The position numbers and the translations under genes are program-made. This document shows, one piece after another, positions 1,395 through 19,334 of a stretch of DNA of 20,811 nucleotides (positions within the stretch are counted from its first letter, which is position 1; every line of letters starts with the position of its first letter). The DNA lies in NCBI GenBank assembly GCA_024278415.1, contig JAJRTI010000543.1, positions 1 to 20,811 of the forward strand, read 5' to 3'. The notes beneath the pieces were generated by a model. The model saw nothing but the letters and a program-made list of their open reading frames with translations. It did no database searches and had not been told where the DNA came from. This DNA is from Planctomycetota bacterium (lineage in GTDB: Bacteria; Planctomycetota; Brocadiia; JAJRTI01).

Positions 1395-1437
1395 GTGTGC
1401 AACACGCGTGACCGACAGACGTGTGCAACACGCGTGA
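1395..1437. repeat. 17-bp direct repeat, 26-bp period
   Basis: GTGTGCAACACGCGTGA is found at 1395-1411 and 1421-1437. The 26-bp period is about 2.5 helical turns. It lies downstream of the predicted start of transcription and upstream of the kinase-like gene. It could be a pair of operator sites or a leader RNA element. Confidence 0.7.
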
Positions 1438-1470
1438 ACAACAACGACACCCCATGCTGTGCAAGTCCTC

Positions 1471-1480
1471 AGAAGGAGGT
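1471..1480 (+). promoter_or_regulatory. Ribosome binding site that fixes the kinase start
   Basis: AGAAGGAGGT is an almost perfect Shine-Dalgarno sequence. The only in-frame start codon at a suitable distance is GTG 1490-1492, about 10 nt after GGAGG. This argues against the ATG at 1421. Confidence 0.75.
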
Positions 1481-1489
1481 TCTTGCTCA

Positions 1490-3112
1490 GTGGCCCGGAA
1501 CGGTGGTCAAACTCAGGTGACAACGCCTCCTCCTGCCCCCAACACCGACGCGCCCGCGCCCCCGCCCTCGCCCGCTGCGCCAAGCCTGGGCGACTCTGAG
1601 TGCGCAATCGCGCTGGCTGTCGCGCTCGCGCTTATGGCCGGACTGCTCGCGATTGTGTATGGCACGGCTTGGATCTGCCGGCATAACGTGCCCGCGGCCC
1701 GGGCGACGATCTGGGTGGGAGTCGCGGTCAGTTTCGTGTGTGGATGGTATCTGACCAATAGGATCATCCTTCCGCTCGGCCGACTCAAGCAGATTGTGGA
1801 CGAGACGCTCGACGGGAAACGGTGGAAGCTCCGTGTCGAAAAGCTGGGCGCGTTAGCCTGGCTCGCGGAACTGTGGAACGCGGCGGCCATCGTCCAAGAT
1901 GAGGACATGGAAACTCTGCAGCGCCAGGTGGCCGACCTCGAAGTCAGCGGGCGCATGGCCGCGGTGCAGAGCAAGCGTGCCGAAGCCATCGTGCAAAGCC
2001 TCGATGACGCGGTGGTCATTGTCGACGGAGCGGGGCAAGTCACCTTCGCCAATCGTGTCTGCGAGCCCCTGCTCGGAACCGCGCCCAGCGACCTCATGGG
2101 CCGCCGCGCGAGCGAGTGCATCACGGTCGCCGAACTGGCCGAGTTCATTAGCAGTACGTTGCGGGCCGGCCCTGGTGCGCTGCCGCAGCCCATCGAGATC
2201 ACCGTGGGCACAGACACCGATCAGCGCAGCCTGAAGGTCTCGGCCCATGCGATCACGGCCGAAGGCGTCTCGTCTGGGTATACGATTCTGTGCCGCGACG
2301 TGACTCCCCAAAAGATGGCCGAGCGAATGCGCCACCGGCTCATCGACAGCGTGTCCAAGGAAATCGTGCCGCCTCTGGCCGACATCCGCGCACGCAGCGA
2401 CCGCCTTATGCGCTCGACGGGCGGCCAGCGGGGGACTCTGCGCGAGGAGGCCGAAGCGATCCACAGCGGCGTGGAGACCGTGTCGAATCTCATCAGCGAC
2501 CTCCGCCGTCTCACCGAAATCGAGAGTGGCGGCATGATGGTGCGCCGACAGGCCGTCAACATGGAGGCGCTGCTCCAGCAGGCGACGAACCTGGTGCGTA
2601 TCCAGGCGGAGGCAAAGCAACTCGATTGGTGCGCGGATGTGCCAGCTCTGCTGCCGCCGGTGCAAGGCGACCCGGACATGATCAAGGTCATCGTGCTGAA
2701 CCTGCTCAGCAACGCGATCAAGTTCACGCCCAACGGCGGCCGGATTGACATAGACGCGTTCGAGGAAGACGGCCAAATCGCTGTGCGCGTGCGCGACACC
2801 GGCTGCGGCATCGAGCCCGAAGACTTGCCTCGCGTGTTCGACAAGTTCTTCCGCACCGACCAGGCCCGGTCCATGCGTGTTCCTGGCGCCGGCCTCGGCC
2901 TCACCCTGGCCAAGCAGATGGCGCTGCTCCACGATGGCGATCTGCACGTGGCGAGCCAGCCCGGACAGGGCACGGAAGTGTGCCTGCTGCTGCCCGCGGC
3001 GCCGTCGACGCCGATCGACGCCCCGCAAGCCAAGCGCCTCACCCTGAGCGACGTCACGCCCGACCACACCACGCAAGAGGTTCCGGACGGTGAGAATAAA
3101 CAAGTCAACTGA
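1490..3112 (+). CDS. Membrane HAMP-PAS histidine-kinase-like protein lacking the phosphoacceptor His
   Basis: 540 aa from GTG 1490. Order: Pro-rich N-terminus; two membrane segments (about 38-61 and 71-92) with a very short outside loop; HAMP-like segment; coiled coil; PAS domain (about 160-270); a DHp-like helix; GHKL ATPase domain (about 375-510). The ATPase boxes are intact: N404-x3-N408, D436-T-G-C-G440 and G466-A-G-L-G470, plus an F-box FDKFF. In the H-box position the sequence is S289-K290-E291 followed by IVPPL, so lysine replaces the histidine that family members phosphorylate. It therefore binds ATP in all likelihood but cannot act as a standard histidine kinase. The stop lies 23 nt inside the STAS gene, implying translational coupling. 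It may be a pseudokinase sensor, or may phosphorylate a protein such as the STAS partner; the second is inference. Confidence 0.85.
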   Translation: MARNGGQTQVTTPPPAPNTDAPAPPPSPAAPSLGDSECAIALAVALALMAGLLAIVYGTAWICRHNVPAARATIWVGVAVSFVCGWYLTNRIILPLGRLKQIVDETLDGKRWKLRVEKLGALAWLAELWNAAAIVQDEDMETLQRQVADLEVSGRMAAVQSKRAEAIVQSLDDAVVIVDGAGQVTFANRVCEPLLGTAPSDLMGRRASECITVAELAEFISSTLRAGPGALPQPIEITVGTDTDQRSLKVSAHAITAEGVSSGYTILCRDVTPQKMAERMRHRLIDSVSKEIVPPLADIRARSDRLMRSTGGQRGTLREEAEAIHSGVETVSNLISDLRRLTEIESGGMMVRRQAVNMEALLQQATNLVRIQAEAKQLDWCADVPALLPPVQGDPDMIKVIVLNLLSNAIKFTPNGGRIDIDAFEEDGQIAVRVRDTGCGIEPEDLPRVFDKFFRTDQARSMRVPGAGLGLTLAKQMALLHDGDLHVASQPGQGTEVCLLLPAAPSTPIDAPQAKRLTLSDVTPDHTTQEVPDGENKQVN

Positions 3113-3425
3113 GAACGACGTGACGATCCTGAGCCCAGACGCCGCGATCATCGACGAAGCAACGCACGCCTTGCACACCGCGCTCCAAGAGTGCGTGCAG
3201 GGCGGCGAACTTCGCATCGTCGTGGACCTCGCGAGCGTGCCCTTCATGGACAGCCGCGCGCTCGAAGTGCTGGTCGACACGCACGCGGAGCTGCGCCACA
3301 TCGACGGCGCGGTGAAGCTTGCCCGCCCCACCACGACCTGCCTCGACATCCTCAAGGCCACTCGCCTCGACGCGCGCCTCCAAGTGCACCAGGACCGCGC
3401 CGGCGCGGTACGGAGTTTCGTCTAG
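3090..3425 (+). CDS. STAS-domain protein (anti-sigma factor antagonist-like)
   Basis: 111 aa, a single STAS domain. The signature DLASVPFMDSRAL (46-58) corresponds to the SpoIIAA/RsbV segment whose serine, just after the Asp, is phosphorylated by a GHKL kinase; here D54-S55. The usual following S-G is R-A, so it is a divergent member. The GTG start at 3090 has AAGAGG 8-10 nt upstream and lies inside the end of the kinase-like gene (23-nt overlap), so the two products are probably made in a fixed ratio. Known family role: partner switching that frees or traps a regulator. No sigma or anti-sigma gene is next to it, so its target could be a pilus component or a distant regulator (inference). Confidence 0.8.
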   Translation: MRINKSTENDVTILSPDAAIIDEATHALHTALQECVQGGELRIVVDLASVPFMDSRALEVLVDTHAELRHIDGAVKLARPTTTCLDILKATRLDARLQVHQDRAGAVRSFV

Positions 3426-13137: not shown

Positions 13138-13145
13138 GAGAGGTG
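13138..13145 (+). promoter_or_regulatory. Ribosome binding site of the major pseudopilin
   Basis: GAGAGGTG lies 6 nt before ATG 13152. The in-frame GTG at 13143 lies inside this site, so ATG 13152 is the start. Confidence 0.75.
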
Positions 13146-13151
13146 AATACA

Positions 13152-13688
13152 ATGTTGAAGAGGATGAAGCGTAAAGAAAGCGGTTTCACGCTTGTTGAAT
13201 TGATCATTGTCATCGTGATCCTCGGTATCCTGGCGTCCATCGCCATCCCGTCGATCATTGGCTCGGCCGACGAAGCGCGCGAGGCAGCCCTGAGCCAAGA
13301 CCTGTCCACGCTCCGTAAGGCTATCCAACTCTATGCGGCTCAGCACCAGGCCAAGTATCCCGGCGCCGTTGCATACAACCTGGGCAACAAGGCAGGCACA
13401 GAGGCCGCGGTCAAGAACCAACTGCTCTACTGGAGCGACAAGGCCGGCAACTGCTCCAAGACCAAAGATAAGAGCAAGTATCCCTTCGGCCCCTACCTCA
13501 CCAAGGAATTCCCTAAGGTTCCCGTGGGCGCCGGCGCCGACAAGGACACTGTCAACGTGACCGCGGATAAGGGCCAACTCACCGCCACTGGCAAAGATGG
13601 CGCATGGATGTACAGCTATGAGACTGGCGAGATCATCTGCAACGACGACACGACTGACCAATCCGGCAAGAAGTACTCCTCGTACTAG
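13152..13688 (+). CDS. gspG: Major pseudopilin, GspG-like
   Basis: 178 aa. Class III leader of 11 residues, cleavage G11/F12, E16 as Glu+5, then the hydrophobic helix of a major pilin (LVELIIVIVILGILASIAIP). The C-terminal domain has YPFGPYLTKEF and WMYSYETGEIICND, and two cysteines that may form a disulfide. It is the likely main filament subunit: it is first after a strong candidate promoter, has the best ribosome binding site, and is followed by a stable hairpin. It needs a prepilin peptidase, not found here. Confidence 0.93.
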   Translation: MLKRMKRKESGFTLVELIIVIVILGILASIAIPSIIGSADEAREAALSQDLSTLRKAIQLYAAQHQAKYPGAVAYNLGNKAGTEAAVKNQLLYWSDKAGNCSKTKDKSKYPFGPYLTKEFPKVPVGAGADKDTVNVTADKGQLTATGKDGAWMYSYETGEIICNDDTTDQSGKKYSSY

Positions 13689-13806: not shown

Positions 13807-14364
13807 ATGAAGCAGCAACAAAACCAGTGGCCCTCCACATCCCGGCGGCGGGAGTAAGCGTTTACGCTCGTGGAGCTTGTCATCGTCGTCACGATCATGG
13901 CAATACTGGCCTCGGTCGCACTGCCGACGATCATGTCGTCGGGCACAGAAGGCGCCGAAACCGCGCTAGTGACCGACCTCGCCACCATCCGCAGCTCTAT
14001 CGCACTCTACAAGAGCCAACACAACGACCGGCTGCCCGGCCTCGTGTCGGGCAAGAAGCCGAGCGACCCAGCCAAGGCGTTCGTGGACCAAATGCTGCTC
14101 TACTCCGACGCGAACGGCAAGACCCGCTCCACGAAATCCGGTTCCTACAAGTTCGGGCCCTACATCCAGAGCCGATCGGGTTTCCTCGCGTCCCCAGTGG
14201 GAAAGAAGGCCGGCAACAACGAAGTGCTCGTGAACGCGTCGAAGACCCGGCTCACCGCTAGCGCCGACGAAGCTCAAGCCTGGAAGTACAGCTACCAGAC
14301 GGGCGAGTTCATCTGCAACGACCCTTCGCCCGACTCCAAGGGCACTGCATTCTCAACGTACTGA
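13807..14364 (+). pseudogene. Second GspG-like pseudopilin with an in-frame stop in its leader
   Basis: From ATG 13807 the frame reads MKQQQNQWPSTSRRRE, then TAA (13855-13857), then AFTLVELVIVVTIMAILAS and an intact pseudopilin body to 14364. The body is clearly related to the first GspG-like protein (FGPYI near the middle, WKYSYQTGEFICND near the end). Everything required is in one frame except the stop, which falls just before the cleavage region. A start at GTG 13870 would give 164 aa with no leader and without mature residues 1-3, so it could not be processed normally. A nonsense mutation, a sequencing error or stop-codon readthrough are the options. A C9 tract (13792-13800) lies 6 nt before the ATG. 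Confidence 0.75.
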
Positions 14365-14369
14365 ACGTC

Positions 14370-14864
14370 ATGCTGAAGAAAGCCATAGCCAGCCCGCGCG
14401 GGTTCTCGATGGTCGAATTGGTCATCGTGGTGCTCGTGATGGCCATCTTGGCGAGTATCGCCGTGCCTGCCATGGCGCTCACTCAAGTGCAGATGCAGCT
14501 CCAAGCCGCCGCCGACCACTTCGTCGGCGCCCTGCGATACGCGCAAAGCATGGCGGTGAACGAGTCCGGCAGCTTCGCGGTTGTGCCGTCCGTGAAGGAC
14601 AACAGTTTCTACGTGGCTGACATGGCCCACCCAAACCAGCCCATCACGGACCCGCTGACCCTTCGGCCCTACCGCGTCGAACTCAACAACAATCGCCTGT
14701 ACACCGGGGTCAAAATCGCGGCCACCAGTTACACAACGCCCATCCGATTCAACTCCCTGGGCAGCCCACAGTCGGGCGGATGGCTCGACCTCCAGGCTGG
14801 CGACAGCCGCCTTCGCGTCCAATTGGAAGGCATCACCGGCCGAATCTTCATCGCGGAGCCTTAG
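14370..14864 (+). CDS. gspH: Minor pseudopilin, GspH/FimT-like
   Basis: 164 aa. Leader of 11 residues ending G11/F12 with E16 at +5, hydrophobic helix, then a GspH-type beta domain (HFVGALRYAQSMAVNESG pattern at about 50-67, typical of FimT/GspH). Starts 5 nt after the preceding gene without a clear ribosome binding site, so translation may depend on its neighbour. Confidence 0.88.
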   Translation: MLKKAIASPRGFSMVELVIVVLVMAILASIAVPAMALTQVQMQLQAAADHFVGALRYAQSMAVNESGSFAVVPSVKDNSFYVADMAHPNQPITDPLTLRPYRVELNNNRLYTGVKIAATSYTTPIRFNSLGSPQSGGWLDLQAGDSRLRVQLEGITGRIFIAEP

Positions 14865-14897: not shown

Positions 14898-15566
14898 GTG
14901 AGTAAGAAACGACGCGCATCCAACAAAGGCTTCACGCTACTGGAGGCCGTGGCCTGCCTCGCCCTCATTGGCGCGGTAGCCGTGCCCATTGGCTCAGCGC
15001 TGGCCGTCATCAGCCAGGGCCCACGCGAGCGCCAAACGCATACCGCCATTGCTACGGGCCTGGAGTCGGCGCTCGAACGCATCTGTGCCATGGACTTTGA
15101 TGACGTACCCATGAGCGATGGCAACAAGCCTGTCGACCTGGGCATCACGGCCTACGTGAACGGCCAGCGCAAGCGAGTCACCGTCTACGTGAAACCCTGG
15201 GGCTTCCTGCGCAACGTCGAGTGGCAACAGAACCCGGTGTCGCTCGACGTGGGCGACTCGCTGACACCCAAAGACCCATGGGAACTCAAGGCCAAGAGCA
15301 AAGGCGGGTTGCTCTACGACCCCAACGTGAAACTCGTCAAGGTCAAGCTCGACACCATGACCATGTCCACGCTGCTGCTGAGAGAACAAGTCCAGTGGCA
15401 GGCCGGCGGGCCGTCCGTTGGCGAAGGCGTCGCGCCAGAGCCTGATTCCAAAGACGTTCAGAACCGCAGAGAGTGGAGGCGGTACCGAGGCTGCATGATG
15501 TCCCAGAGGTCCAAGGGCCGGCAGCCTTGGCTCCGGTGGATCAAGTCAAAGAGGAGGCGCCACTAA
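14898..15566 (+). CDS. gspI: Minor pseudopilin, GspI/PilV-like
   Basis: 222 aa from GTG 14898; the ATG at 14896 is followed directly by TGA. AAGAGGAGA (14882-14890) gives the start. Leader G11/F12 with FTLLE, E16 at +5. The folded part is short (to about 185). It ends with a strongly basic tail (about 188-222: many Arg/Lys, two Met, Trp). Its TAA overlaps the next ATG (TAATG). Confidence 0.8.
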   Translation: MSKKRRASNKGFTLLEAVACLALIGAVAVPIGSALAVISQGPRERQTHTAIATGLESALERICAMDFDDVPMSDGNKPVDLGITAYVNGQRKRVTVYVKPWGFLRNVEWQQNPVSLDVGDSLTPKDPWELKAKSKGGLLYDPNVKLVKVKLDTMTMSTLLLREQVQWQAGGPSVGEGVAPEPDSKDVQNRREWRRYRGCMMSQRSKGRQPWLRWIKSKRRRH

Positions 15567-16654
15567 TGCCCAGGATCACCCTCATGAACATGCCTAAACA
15601 ACTGCGCCACGGCCGGGCCGCCTTCTCGTTGGCCGAGATGATCGTCGCGGTCGCCGTGCTCAGCACGATCGGCCTGAGCATGGGCCTGCTGTTTAGCGCT
15701 GGCCTCAGTGTGCACGAGGCCGCAGCAGACCAAGACCACATGTGCCGGGCCGCGAATATGGCCCTGCTGCGCATGAAGACCTTCGGCCGCGAGTCGAACC
15801 GCCTCTTCGTGCCCAACGTCAAAGCCCCCTCCGGACAGAGCCTCGCGTTCGCCAGCATGATCGACGACGATGGCGACGGCCTGTACAACGAGGATCCTCC
15901 GGGCTACGTGGATGGCCCCAAGTCCTCCGGCATCAAGGGCCTGGACGACGACGGCGACGGCGTGGTCGACGAAGGCGCGGCCGGGGATGACGATGAGGAC
16001 GGCAAGGTGGACGAAGATCCCATCAATGGCATCGACGACGATGGCGATGGCGCGGTCGACGAAGATGCCGGCGCGGACATCGATCAAGTGAAGGGCGCCA
16101 CGGCCCAGCCAGACGACGATGGCGACGGCAAGGCGAACGAAGACCCCTATCAGCCCATCGTGTATCGCTGGGACAAGGCGAAGAAGGAACTCTATGAGCG
16201 CCACCCCATCTACGGCGAAAACCTGGTCGCCAAGGATGTCACAGACTTCAACGTGACGCTAACCCAAGGCGCATCCGGCCAATGCCTGGTGTCCGTGTCC
16301 ATACGTATCGAAGTTGAAAACGGCAAGTACGTGGACGCGGGTATTAGCTTCTACATGCGCAACGCGGCCTACATCGGCAACCTAAACGCTCCCGTCGACC
16401 CCGGCGCCGGCGCGAACACTCTCGTGGACGCGCCCGACCCGGAGGACGCGCCCGAAGACCCAGGCGACGCTCTCAGCGACGATGACGGTGACCGCCCCAC
16501 GAACCCCTTCAGGTCGATCCTCAGCAGACTCGCCCACAGGCGAGGCAGGGGCGGCCGGCGGGGCGATGGCGACAAAGATGATGACGGCAAGACGAGCGGC
16601 GAAGGCCGAGGAGGCCGGGGCGACCATGGGGGATGGAGAGGCCGGCGGCGCTGA
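15566..16654 (+). CDS. gspJ: Minor pseudopilin, GspJ/PilW-like, with five Ca-type loops
   Basis: 362 aa from ATG 15566, with GAGGAGG about 8 nt upstream. Leader cleaved between A19 and F20 (Ala at -1), E24 at +5, hydrophobic helix 25-46. Five acidic D-x-D-G-D-G-type loops at 100-110, 127-137, 141-151, 157-167 and 183-193 interrupt the pseudopilin domain. The second part (about 195-290) is a beta domain. The C-terminus is Asp/Pro-rich, then Arg/Gly-rich (330-362). The loops look like EF-hand or thrombospondin-3 Ca-binding repeats; binding is inference. In-frame sequence upstream overlaps gspI and was not used. Confidence 0.85.
   Translation: MPRITLMNMPKQLRHGRAAFSLAEMIVAVAVLSTIGLSMGLLFSAGLSVHEAAADQDHMCRAANMALLRMKTFGRESNRLFVPNVKAPSGQSLAFASMIDDDGDGLYNEDPPGYVDGPKSSGIKGLDDDGDGVVDEGAAGDDDEDGKVDEDPINGIDDDGDGAVDEDAGADIDQVKGATAQPDDDGDGKANEDPYQPIVYRWDKAKKELYERHPIYGENLVAKDVTDFNVTLTQGASGQCLVSVSIRIEVENGKYVDAGISFYMRNAAYIGNLNAPVDPGAGANTLVDAPDPEDAPEDPGDALSDDDGDRPTNPFRSILSRLAHRRGRGGRRGDGDKDDDGKTSGEGRGGRGDHGGWRGRRR
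15863..16144 (+). repeat. Five tandem Asp-rich loop repeats within the gspJ-like gene
   Basis: The core GACGACGATGGCGACGG recurs with small changes. The repeat unit is 10-27 codons, with irregular spacing. Each encodes D-D-D-x-D-G-x-x-[DN]-E-[DG]. Repetition at DNA level may allow copy-number change. Confidence 0.75.
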
Positions 16655-16715: not shown

Positions 16716-19334
16716 ATGAAGCAGCGAAACGAACAAGGCAGCAGCTACGCGGTTGTGCTGATCTTCGTGTCGTGTCTCACGATCCTCATTGGCAGCCTGG
16801 CGCTCACCAGCGCCAACTACGGCAAGATGTCGTCGAATGTGGCTGACGGCAGCAAGGCGTTTTACATCGCCGACGCCGGCCTCAAAGAGGGCACTTGGTG
16901 GGTCGGTGCACGACAGCGCTCACCGGAACTGTGGAAGCTCCCCGCGGCCAAGGACAAGCCCGACTACCCCTTCCCTATCAAGCGTAGCTTCTTCGGCGGG
17001 AAGTACGTTGTGACCGTGTCCGCAGCCGCGCCGGATGGCAGCGTGGATATCACGAGCGTCGGCACGTACAACGACGCACAGCGTACCGCCACGGCGACCT
17101 TACGGCCCTACGGCTTCGCGCTCTTCAGCAAGAACGCGCTCTCCCTTGGAAAGACTCCCACGACTCCGCTCGAAGCCGCAGCAGATGGCGACCTCGTGAT
17201 CGTGGACCGCGGGATCATTGGGGGCATGAAGTTCCACCTGTCTCGTGTGCAATACATGAATGATCCTGTCGCGGGCCGCACGGCTGAGGGCCGAAACGTG
17301 CTCGACGATTACGCGGCCATCATGGGCGCCAGCACGAGCGTTCGCCCTGTCGACCCTTACGGATACGTCGAGATCCTACTGGGCGTGCTGAACAACGTGC
17401 GCTGGAACTATGTCGTCGCCAAACGCAAGGGCCGAGCCTTCATCACGAACCCCGACTCTAAGCCCACCTTCCAAGACGTCGTCGGCGCCTTCTTCGCCAC
17501 CCGCGTGCGGCGAACCCGGCATGTAGACTATGAAGCCTATCGCGAGCGCCTGGCCAAGGCTGCATCCGATCTCACCAACGAACAGGCCCGGCAAGCGCTT
17601 CTCAAGATCGTCTCGTACTATCCCTACGACATCAAGAAGTACGGCTGGAAATGCCCACGCGCACTCAAGCACTGGGATCGGTTTACGATCCTCGACATAG
17701 TCGGGCGCTTCTTGGACACTCGTCGCGCTCGCAAGGAAAGCCACAAGACCTACGCCGCCAGACTGAAAAGAATCATCGAGCACTACAACTACCAGAACGC
17801 AGAGCGCTCGTTGCGCGAGGAAAACGCTGAGTTCTGGAACCTCGTGGACCCCGTCGGCCTCTGCGAGAAGGCCGACGTCGACACGCGGCAAGAGTGGCTG
17901 GAGAAGTGGGTGACCCAGTTCCCCTTCACCTACTACGCCAAGAACCAGAAGCCTCGCTCTGCGCCCAACCTGCTGGATGCATACGGCGCCATGCTCCGCG
18001 TCCGCCGACACTGGGACGCTGAAAACGACACGGACTACCAGAAAAGGCTCATCGCCGCGTTGGACCACGACCTAGTCCAGATCTATGGCAACATCCACTC
18101 GAACCAGAAAATCTGGACCTGCGACGCTACGGACCAACTCAACCAAAATGCCATCATCAACCTGCACGGCACCGCCACCCAGGTGGCCGAGGGCGATCCG
18201 GCCATCGCCCTTGGGTCCGTCGACTACGCAGGCATCCGCAAACGCGCAGAGGCCGATGCCAAGGCCACCGGCAAACAGCACGTGTGGACCGTCGCCCAGT
18301 TCCAGGCGCTGCTTCGGTCCACCCAGAATGTCCGCCTCACCGGCGTGCACTACGTCTATCTGCCCGGCAAGGCGGCCCAAGTCTACGTGGAGCGCCCTGG
18401 GGGCTTCCGGCCCTCGCAACTCGCGCTCAGGAAGGTCGGCGGCTCACTCAAGGTAGAAGGCTGCCTCGCCTTCGATATCCCTGGGCACCCGAGTGCGAAA
18501 GTACGCGGCTGCTACCTCGTCGATGGGCGCTACAAGCCTCTGCCTGCCGTGAAGCTCAACTGCGACGTCTTCCTCACGCCCGGCTCGGTCAAGCGCGGCA
18601 ATGTCACCACCGCAGGCCCCGACGCGGAGGATCTGCCCGTGCTGGCTTCGTCTGGCATCCCTCTACAATTTGGCCCCAGCTTCGACGAATACGCACGCCC
18701 CGCCCGGGCGCTGCTCTTCCTCCTCAGGCGCTTCCGTTACCTCGCCATGAGCCACGTGCCCGCCCCCAACGGCTTGGACCGCCTCGGCCGCATCGTGGGC
18801 GTCGCTCGCCGCACGGACGAAGGCAACTATGATTACTACTCGCGCGTGCGTGCCGGCGTCTACGACCGGTTCGACGACTCGCGGCGTGTCATGGCCGCCA
18901 TCCTTCGTGAGAAATGGGAGGAGGGCCTGGCGCCTTTCGCTTCGCGGGACGACCTTGCCGACACGATCGCGAAGTGGCTAGGACGCCGCCGGCGCCAGCG
19001 ATCTGAGACGGGTCTAAAGTTCCTCGCGCGCCTGGCCAAGGAGGTTGAAAAAGCGCCCGACGACCAGAAGGACGTGCGCCTCTACTTGCAGGGCCAAATC
19101 CACTCCGAAGGGCTGGTGGCCATCTTCTCGCGGCCCGAGATCCCGCGTGTGTTCGGCCCGCGCAAGAGATGGGTCAACCGAAAAACGTACGACACCGATG
19201 GTTCGGTGACGGCATTCGGCTCCATCATCGCCGGCGGCCTCTACATCGAGCGCTGCTCGACATCCGCCCAGTACTTCTTCAAGTCCTACGGAGCGAGCCG
19301 CGGCCTCCAACTCACGCACTGGTCCGCCAACTGA
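16716..19334 (+). CDS. Large GspK/PilX-like minor pseudopilin with repeated helical modules
   Basis: 872 aa from ATG 16716. The N-terminus is pilin-like: G8 then SSYAVVLIFVS, one hydrophobic helix (11-31), no Glu at +5 (as in GspK and many PilX), and the PilX-type AFYIADAGLKEG (48-59). A beta-like segment follows (90-190). About six copies of a module lie at 195-220 (weak), 252-279, 326-350, 420-445, 687-711 and 747-773. Pattern: D-x2-[GA], hydrophobic residues, R-R, then an aromatic 19-21 residues after the Asp, x2, R-[LV]. Between them are segments I do not recognise. It is several times larger than most PilX proteins. It follows the GspJ-like gene by 61 nt and would cap the filament tip. 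No strong ribosome binding site is seen. A longer in-frame start at 16482 overlaps gspJ and is not used. Confidence 0.8.
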   Translation: MKQRNEQGSSYAVVLIFVSCLTILIGSLALTSANYGKMSSNVADGSKAFYIADAGLKEGTWWVGARQRSPELWKLPAAKDKPDYPFPIKRSFFGGKYVVTVSAAAPDGSVDITSVGTYNDAQRTATATLRPYGFALFSKNALSLGKTPTTPLEAAADGDLVIVDRGIIGGMKFHLSRVQYMNDPVAGRTAEGRNVLDDYAAIMGASTSVRPVDPYGYVEILLGVLNNVRWNYVVAKRKGRAFITNPDSKPTFQDVVGAFFATRVRRTRHVDYEAYRERLAKAASDLTNEQARQALLKIVSYYPYDIKKYGWKCPRALKHWDRFTILDIVGRFLDTRRARKESHKTYAARLKRIIEHYNYQNAERSLREENAEFWNLVDPVGLCEKADVDTRQEWLEKWVTQFPFTYYAKNQKPRSAPNLLDAYGAMLRVRRHWDAENDTDYQKRLIAALDHDLVQIYGNIHSNQKIWTCDATDQLNQNAIINLHGTATQVAEGDPAIALGSVDYAGIRKRAEADAKATGKQHVWTVAQFQALLRSTQNVRLTGVHYVYLPGKAAQVYVERPGGFRPSQLALRKVGGSLKVEGCLAFDIPGHPSAKVRGCYLVDGRYKPLPAVKLNCDVFLTPGSVKRGNVTTAGPDAEDLPVLASSGIPLQFGPSFDEYARPARALLFLLRRFRYLAMSHVPAPNGLDRLGRIVGVARRTDEGNYDYYSRVRAGVYDRFDDSRRVMAAILREKWEEGLAPFASRDDLADTIAKWLGRRRRQRSETGLKFLARLAKEVEKAPDDQKDVRLYLQGQIHSEGLVAIFSRPEIPRVFGPRKRWVNRKTYDTDGSVTAFGSIIAGGLYIERCSTSAQYFFKSYGASRGLQLTHWSAN

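Follow-up and report, generated by a model that had tools for sequence, protein, structure and literature searches.

The stretch of DNA considered here (the window) comprises 20,811 nucleotides of contig JAJRTI010000543.1 from a Planctomycetota bacterium of the Brocadiia lineage (assembly GCA_024278415.1, positions 1 to 20,811, forward strand) and carries a type IV pilus/type II secretion-like operon, in which a set of pilin genes in the order H-I-J-K ends with the gene for an 872-residue protein, P0001 (Table 1). A reading made from the letters of the window (the sequence-only reading) had marked the interval 17296-19034 (correctly, as residues 194-773 within the gene 16716-19334) as a helical module repeated in six copies and reminiscent of phage baseplate proteins. 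Four of these copies (c1-c4) are found here to recover one another, the repeat layout is kept in two relatives of P0001, and the module matches in sequence a hairpin of phage baseplate wedge proteins.

P0001 starts with a prepilin-type N-terminus, namely a short leader whose last residue is Gly8, a hydrophobic helix (residues 9-28 in a low-confidence model, with a mean predicted local distance difference test score, pLDDT, of 34 over the full length) and an AFYIA-AG motif, and, as read from the sequences, all three family proteins lack Glu at mature position 5. GspK likewise lacks Glu5, and P0001 is several times longer than typical GspK/PilX members. The label GspK/PilX-like, given to the protein by the sequence-only reading, stays tentative: PilX_N matches the N-terminus of P0001 and of the relatives P0002 and P0003 at 16.6, 12.1 and 20.7 bits, respectively, all below the cut-off of 25.5 bits, and neither Pfam nor NCBIfam finds T2SSK at E≤1 in any of the three proteins, in searches where the HMMER filters drop most matches above about 0.1. 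Membership of the pilins is suggested by these sub-threshold Pfam scores together with the position of the gene.

At least two relatives exist, P0002 and P0003, which are 59 and 60% identical to P0001 over the full length (search of about 5.8 billion proteins, 7997 candidates scored). A family profile matched nothing beyond these three members at E≤10 among the 7997 candidates scored, one module region used as a query returned only itself (nine candidates scored), and two pattern-based genome scans, covering one genome for each of 84,980 species, yielded no relative; since genome scans and protein searches gave so few relatives, the family is rare or poorly sampled. In the low-confidence model, two helical insertions flank a beta-rich body with rung-like GxIHSxxxI motifs, recognized by eye, and strands predicted between residues 547 and 633, for which no solved relative was found among the PDB sequences (residues 453-656; one chance match, E 1.1). 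The C-terminal stretch carries the motifs LxGxIxxxGLxxI and AFGxIIxGGxYIER, conserved in the alignment of the three proteins. Two further candidates were rejected. Recent acquisition of the insertions was dismissed on their GC content at third codon positions, which at 0.809 and 0.811 equals that of the gene (0.808) within an operon range of 0.67-0.88, and a match of residues 229-289 to T4BSS DotI/IcmL (E 0.0009; 19.2 bits, cut-off 27.7) is taken as chance, because P0002 and P0003 do not have it.

The pattern proposed in the sequence-only reading, itself derived from the copies it describes, occurs five times in P0001 compared with a mean of 0.004 in shuffled sequences (0 of 5000 reach five); in its strict form it is found twice in each relative, and in its most relaxed form five, four and three times in P0001, P0002 and P0003. 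The copies were also searched for with profile hidden Markov models (HMMs) trained on all other copies, with 1000 shuffles and 1000 local shuffles as decoys. By this leave-one-out procedure c1, c2 and c3 of P0001 scored 11.1, 9.2 and 4.6 bits, values that none of the 1000 shuffles reached and that one, two and six local shuffles reached, respectively; c4 was weak (0.8 bits; 32 shuffles and 30 local shuffles). In the relatives, c2 and c3 were recovered at 10.4-16.7 bits, c1 scored 0.3 bits in P0002 and was missed in P0003, and c4 was missed in P0002 and scored 0.3 bits in P0003, while c0 and c5 gave no match in any of the three proteins. HMMs trained on three of c1-c4 found c2 at 14.4, 11.7 and 12.8 bits in P0001, P0002 and P0003 (0 of 2000 decoys each), c3 at 1.8 bits in P0001 (10 and 26 of 1000 decoys) and at 12.4 and 9.4 in the relatives, c1 at 6.6 bits in P0001 (two and three of 1000 decoys) and 0.6 in P0002, with c1 of P0003 missed, and c4 at -0.2, 1.6 and 4.1 bits. 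An HMM made from c2 and c3 only gave 5.5, 7.2 and 9.9 bits for c4 and 10.4, 3.5 and 0.4 bits for c1 in the three proteins, and c5 stayed at background with HMMs trained on the better copies (-4.1 and -1.1 bits).

A further test was profile-profile comparison, in which the three proteins were pooled and 36-column windows of the family alignment were compared with 253 background windows that share at most seven columns with any copy and overlap one another, so that they are not independent. Each of c1-c4 was recovered by the others at 93-97% (individual values in Table 1), a level that none of the 253 background windows attained, the best of these being helical stretches at 295 and 389 with 57-68%. 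Residues 747-773, put forward as a clear copy, count as a candidate: c5 reached 4.8-39.2%, aligned along its length, with two to six background windows as good and the HMM tests negative. The weak copy suggested at residues 195-220 is unsupported, as c0 reached 0.6-16.5% in alignments of 3-13 columns only, with 2-22 of the 253 windows as good. The profile thus fails for c0 and c5 and for no other copy, and the notion of six equal copies was given up; what stands is a repeated helical module with four supported copies, which by leave-one-out HMM and profile-profile comparison of the sequences is real. The copies are not in tandem, as c1-c3 lie in residues 191-452 and c4 and c5 in residues 656-782, with predicted strands in between. 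In the alignment of c1-c4 from the three proteins (12 rows), D, G and R are invariant, and E, Y and R are present in 11 of the 12. Mean identity is 55% for the same copy between orthologues and 27% between different copies; since the copies differ more among themselves than between orthologues, the duplications are, on sequence evidence, old and predate the split of the three proteins.

This 12-row alignment, out of 18 possible rows, also served for the look-ups in phage and PDB sequences, c0 and c5 being left out because both had failed the repeat test. At its modules P0003 matches two baseplate families of PHROGs, phrog_1160 over two stretches (E 4e-5) and phrog_7378 (E 3e-4), whereas P0001 and P0002 match baseplate families weakly (E about 0.1). 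Of the single module rows, five of 12 reach phrog_7378 (best 4e-4) and four of 12 phrog_1160 (best 8e-4), compared with three families reached by one reversed row each, none baseplate-named and the best at 0.09; of the 11 families to which the module rows lead, seven are shared with the BSP10 baseplate protein (E≤0.01) and four are not. When translated phage records were searched with the c3 module of P0003, 40 of 50,697 matched (E 0.5-6), 21 of them annotated as baseplate, five as tail and 14 as hypothetical or unannotated, with no other function among them, compared with one of 72,556 plasmid records; 34 of the 40 are Bacillus phages, and the six Pantoea/Xanthomonas records match the second half of the module only.

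Profiles made from either side find the other. Of eight phage proteins, seven score above zero with the c1-c4 profile, and six align in register at LD..G; BSP10 reaches 27.1 bits, a J-like protein 16.0 through its second half alone, five others range over 1.9-7.4, and LpeD falls to -2.0. The c2 and c3 profile scores above zero on five of the eight. Conversely, a phage-only profile was assembled from eight phage wedge pieces and no pilin, seeded from BSP10, which had itself been found via a pilin module; it draws on four records from 60 matches listed (of 838) and three others, without the AAM37 J-like protein (a good match in the second half of the motif only) and DIBBI26 (near-identical to AAM37gp26). 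In P0002 and P0003 it recovers both c3 and c4, no more than one of 3000 shuffles scoring as well, and in P0001 it finds c1 (second half), c3 and c4 at one to three of 3000 shuffles and c2 at 28; a shorter core profile leaves no shuffle of 3000 as good for c4 of P0001 or for c3 and c4 of the relatives, but 82 for c3 of P0001 and 134 for its c1. Profile against profile, the copies match the phage wedge (Mu gp48/DUF2612-like) profile at 95.6% and in register, compared with 0.07% for the reversed control, so that the baseplate likeness suggested in the sequence-only reading is upheld. Window by window, the phage-only profile gives 95.8% for c3, 94.5% for c4, 19.8% for c2, 13.8% for c1 and 6.8% for c5, all above the 253 background windows, and 1.6% for c0, below one of them. 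The Pfam families PF10076 and PF11041 gave no match at E≤1 in P0001, P0002 or P0003. At the level of sequence, the match between the helix-loop-helix module of the copies and the phage wedge hairpin holds.

The phage proteins concerned, namely TmpF of phage 812, BSP10 baseplate protein 2, Mu gp48-like proteins (PF10076) and DUF2612 proteins (PF11041), share with P0001 the helix-loop-helix in register and the motif LD..G...G..R...(E)SD..YR.RI. The module-bearing phage proteins examined carry one copy each, whereas P0001 has four or five, no further shared part was seen, and P0001 is not encoded in a tail gene cluster. The module begins near residues 36-67 of the phage protein in seven loci taken from named records; in six of them its gene directly follows one annotated as baseplate J, wedge or baseplate protein/component, and in the seventh, Vibrio phage 1.121.O, a gene for a pectin-lyase-fold protein, while a tail-fibre gene lies at most three genes downstream in four of the seven. 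All five phage module proteins scanned match Mu Gp48 or DUF2612 in Pfam (E≤1), two of them above the cut-off. Mu gp48 is the third wedge protein, in a wedge heterotrimer; its N-terminal region forms a three-helix bundle with those of two gp47 copies, the rest belongs to the trifurcation unit, and its loop 133-155 anchors the tail fibre (PMC11915804).

Structure prediction is consistent with a common module. All six segments are modeled as a helix, a loop of 9-11 residues and a second helix, so that they do not differ from one another, a weak test given the mean pLDDT of 34; c4, modeled from an alignment that also contained three further copies from the window and three rows from phages, has helices at 9-16 and 27-58 with a loop in between, at a pLDDT of 81. 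Foldseek matched the c4 model to nine of 350,542 PDB chains, none significantly (E 3.2 or worse), with phage 812 baseplate chains (among them 9euf_H and 9euk_D, named TmpF) at ranks 1-5 and a phiCD508 baseplate chain at rank 9. VIA-align places residues 5-44 of the model on 55-92 of the phage 812 chain, a register that agrees with the sequence; it also gives unrelated helical chains higher scores than those of phage 812. With viral models as targets, Foldseek reaches an E of 0.24 at best, and six of the best 50 of 106 entries bear a baseplate name. These look-ups are not independent of sequence, as Foldseek uses it and the alignment behind the c4 model contained phage rows. Because unrelated helical chains surpass the phage 812 chains and viral models reach only E 0.24, a claim at the level of the fold was dropped.

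Table 1. Features of the window at and around the gene for P0001
Feature	Coordinates	Strand	Basis
GspG-like gene 1	13143-13688	+	N_methyl above cut-off; G name from gene order and sequence
GspG-like gene 2	13870-14364	+	No Pfam family; named from gene order and sequence
GspH-like gene	14370-14864	+	N_methyl and GspH, both above cut-off
GspI-like gene	14898-15566	+	N_methyl below cut-off; named from gene order and sequence
GspJ-like gene (P0007)	15557-16654	+	N_methyl below cut-off; named from gene order and sequence
P0001, 872-residue PilX/GspK/ComZ-like putative large minor pilin	16716-19334	+	Open reading frame, PilX_N below cut-off, full-length relatives
Prepilin-type N-terminus, residues 1-60	16716-16895	+	Sequence; kept in P0002 and P0003
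Helical insertion 1, residues 191-452 (contains c1-c3)	17286-18071	+	Low-confidence model
Candidate c0, residues 192-226	17289-17393	+	Unsupported by sequence; helix-loop-helix in low-confidence model only
Copy c1, residues 250-284	17463-17567	+	Profile-profile 92.6%; HMM 11.1 bits
Copy c2, residues 324-356	17685-17783	+	Profile-profile 96.7%; HMM 14.4 bits, 0/2000 decoys
Copy c3, residues 418-451, nearest to phage module	17967-18068	+	95.0% against other copies, 95.8% against phage-only profile
Beta-rich body, residues 453-655, possible beta-solenoid	18072-18680	+	Low-confidence model, motif by eye
Helical insertion 2, residues 656-782 (contains c4 and c5)	18681-19061	+	Low-confidence model
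Copy c4, residues 685-719	18768-18872	+	Profile-profile 93.9% (other copies) and 94.5% (phage-only profile); helix-loop-helix at pLDDT 81
Candidate c5, residues 745-779	18948-19052	+	4.8-39.2% over 27-31 columns; HMM tests negative
Putative beta-type C-terminal stretch, residues 783-872	19062-19331	+	Conserved motifs in family alignment
Hairpin 3' of P0001 stop codon	19368-19413	+	21-nucleotide arms, 86% complementary; z -4.9, 0/200 shuffles as stable

Upstream of the pilin genes, the operon encodes GspE/PilB, PilT and PilC (assigned by sequence) and PilM, PilN and a secretin (assigned by Pfam); the GspE call is also backed by likeness to annotated gspE genes, with plasmid matches below 60% identity in 696 of 696 records. 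A PilZ gene (Pfam) lies downstream of the P0001 gene. The hairpin behind the P0001 stop codon has no T-run and was not called in a separate listing, and likely represents the transcript end. No Rfam family or tRNA was found in the window, and no tail gene was noticed in this pilus operon by reading and Pfam. The GspJ-like protein P0007 has, at residues of about 100-200, five acidic loops of the type DDD(G/E)DG...(D/N)E, presumably akin to calcium-binding repeats, followed by an R/G-rich tail. The second GspG-like gene has an in-frame stop within the prepilin leader (13807-13870), just ahead of the AFTLVE motif, and the first start past it is GTG 13870, which would make this pilin leaderless; a pseudogene, recoding and a sequencing error are indistinguishable from the sequence. 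Ahead of the pilus genes, at 1421-3425, lie a sensor histidine kinase-like reading frame and a small STAS-like one, which by sequence may form a regulatory pair.

The explanation that we favor, at about even confidence for the whole, is that P0001 is a minor pilin of the PilX/GspK/ComZ kind which sits at the tip and has docking hairpins inserted into a beta-rich body. Through its N-terminal helix it would be built into a pilus or pseudopilus in the manner usual for prepilins, close to the tip or at it and alongside the GspH/I/J-like pilins of the genes just upstream. The body would be beta-rich and probably a solenoid, and the insertions (191-452 and 656-782), built from at least four diverged helix-loop-helix copies of 28-34 residues with the pattern LD..G...(G)..R...E....Y..R[LI], would project from it. 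The hairpins may then form a multi-site protein-docking surface on the tip, which could hold other minor pilins or a separate adhesin; we infer docking because wedge proteins of the Mu gp48/DUF2612/TmpF kind pack and anchor in the baseplate, as a literature search found no description of the role of the hairpin in TmpF. Its place at the tip would follow from the order of the genes and from the parallels with GspK and ComZ. A close parallel is ComZ of Thermus thermophilus: like P0001, it is far larger than ordinary pilins, is encoded beside minor pilins, is missed by a standard pilin finder and has an extra large domain that argues for the tip, since, as its authors reason, a beta-solenoid of 380 residues fits the fiber there only (PMC6561018). 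P0001 is taken as a tip minor pilin by analogy with this argument; no homology to ComZ was detected, the solenoid of P0001 is putative, and the solenoid of ComZ has no helical repeat insertions (PMC6561018). With GspK/PilX, P0001 shares a gene position after GspH/I/J-like genes and the prepilin-type N-terminus with AFYIA-AG and no Glu5, but it differs in its repeated hairpins, the sub-threshold PilX_N score and the lack of a T2SSK match.

The most serious alternative, unlikely yet deserving weight, is that the modules are structural only, i.e., generic amphipathic helix-loop-helix elements that pad or stabilize the loops of a beta-solenoid, with D and E as helix caps, R-E/R-D salt bridges and packing of Y and L, and that they resemble the phage hairpin by chance convergence, without docking. 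In ComZ, long loops and a short helix pack against the faces of the solenoid (PMC6561018). The shared core spans only about 28 residues, and for this reason homology and convergence are indistinguishable. Several results temper the likeness to phage wedge proteins. In the PDB sequences (177,635), the top match to the module alignment is ribosomal protein uL18 (E 0.027), which fits the second half of the module as well as TmpF, in second place (E 0.037), fits the whole, and of the 39 sequences at E≤10 most are uL18. No translated phage record matches the c4 module of P0002, and of the 20 phage matches to the c3 module of that protein the best six (E 0.06-0.3) are Dibbivirus hypothetical or membrane proteins, the remainder being 12 in Bacillus phages (seven baseplate, five hypothetical) and two in phage Noxifer, in a hypothetical protein. 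For one module the best match is a non-tail phage protein, and this, uL18 and the unrelated helical chains of VIA-align, which score alike in places, favor convergence; moreover, no intermediate proteins that link the pilin modules to the phage wedge proteins were found. On the other side, the match to the phage hairpin is specific over the full length, in register and lost on reversal (the best reversed match in the PDB sequences has E 0.73), which favors homology; the look-ups of solved structures by sequence and by fold both lead, if at weak E values, to TmpF of phage 812; and the one module query described above reached phage far more than plasmid records, mostly in Bacillus phages, with no annotation outside tails.

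A side observation concerns Pantoea phage PSKM gp70 (L012 1021-1317), a hypothetical protein of 98 residues encoded apart from the tail genes, 25 kb from the baseplate J gene of that phage, which is the best single match to one P0002 module (E 0.06, 54% identity over 28 columns).

A role as a tip DNA receptor like ComZ, in which arginine-rich helical insertions would bind DNA for uptake, is quite improbable: DNA is bound by ComZ, itself a large minor pilin with a solenoid (PMC6561018), and the insertions of P0001 are positive (net +10 and +8), but this charge is not conserved across P0001, P0002 and P0003 (+10, +17 and -2 for insertion 1; +8, +3 and +2 for insertion 2), which disfavors such a role, and no competence gene was noticed on reading the window. 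Least probable of all is that P0001 is a GspK of type II secretion whose insertions are a diverged form of the alpha-helical domain that GspK carries within its pilin fold (PMC6561018), since, despite the last place of P0001 in a G-H-I-J-K-like gene set and the absence of Glu5, T2SSK is not matched, the insertions are repeats of a hairpin resembling phage wedges, and the PilT-like ATPase (by reading), PilM and PilN of the operon point to type IV pili.

Within the favored reading of P0001 as a tip minor pilin with docking hairpins, one bolder version, which we regard as doubtful, is that a bacterial pilus captured a wedge hairpin from a phage tail and duplicated it. A single tip pilin would then act by itself as a baseplate-like hub in which each hairpin docks a partner, much as the one hairpin present in gp48-type proteins may contribute to holding together the wedge that bears the tail fibers. 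A literature search, mostly of open-licence texts, found no description of a pilin with baseplate-like modules, and to our knowledge contractile tails and type IV filaments are generally held to be unrelated. If capture took place, it would mean an exchange of parts between the two.

Tip minor pilins contribute to the binding specificity of a type IV filament, and for many of the large ones no function has, as far as we know, been assigned. Reuse of the phage hairpin, if true, would supply a concrete assembly principle, the repeated docking hairpin, and a rare case of part-sharing; even if the likeness is convergent, a compact hairpin would have been used repeatedly in extracellular multi-protein hubs.

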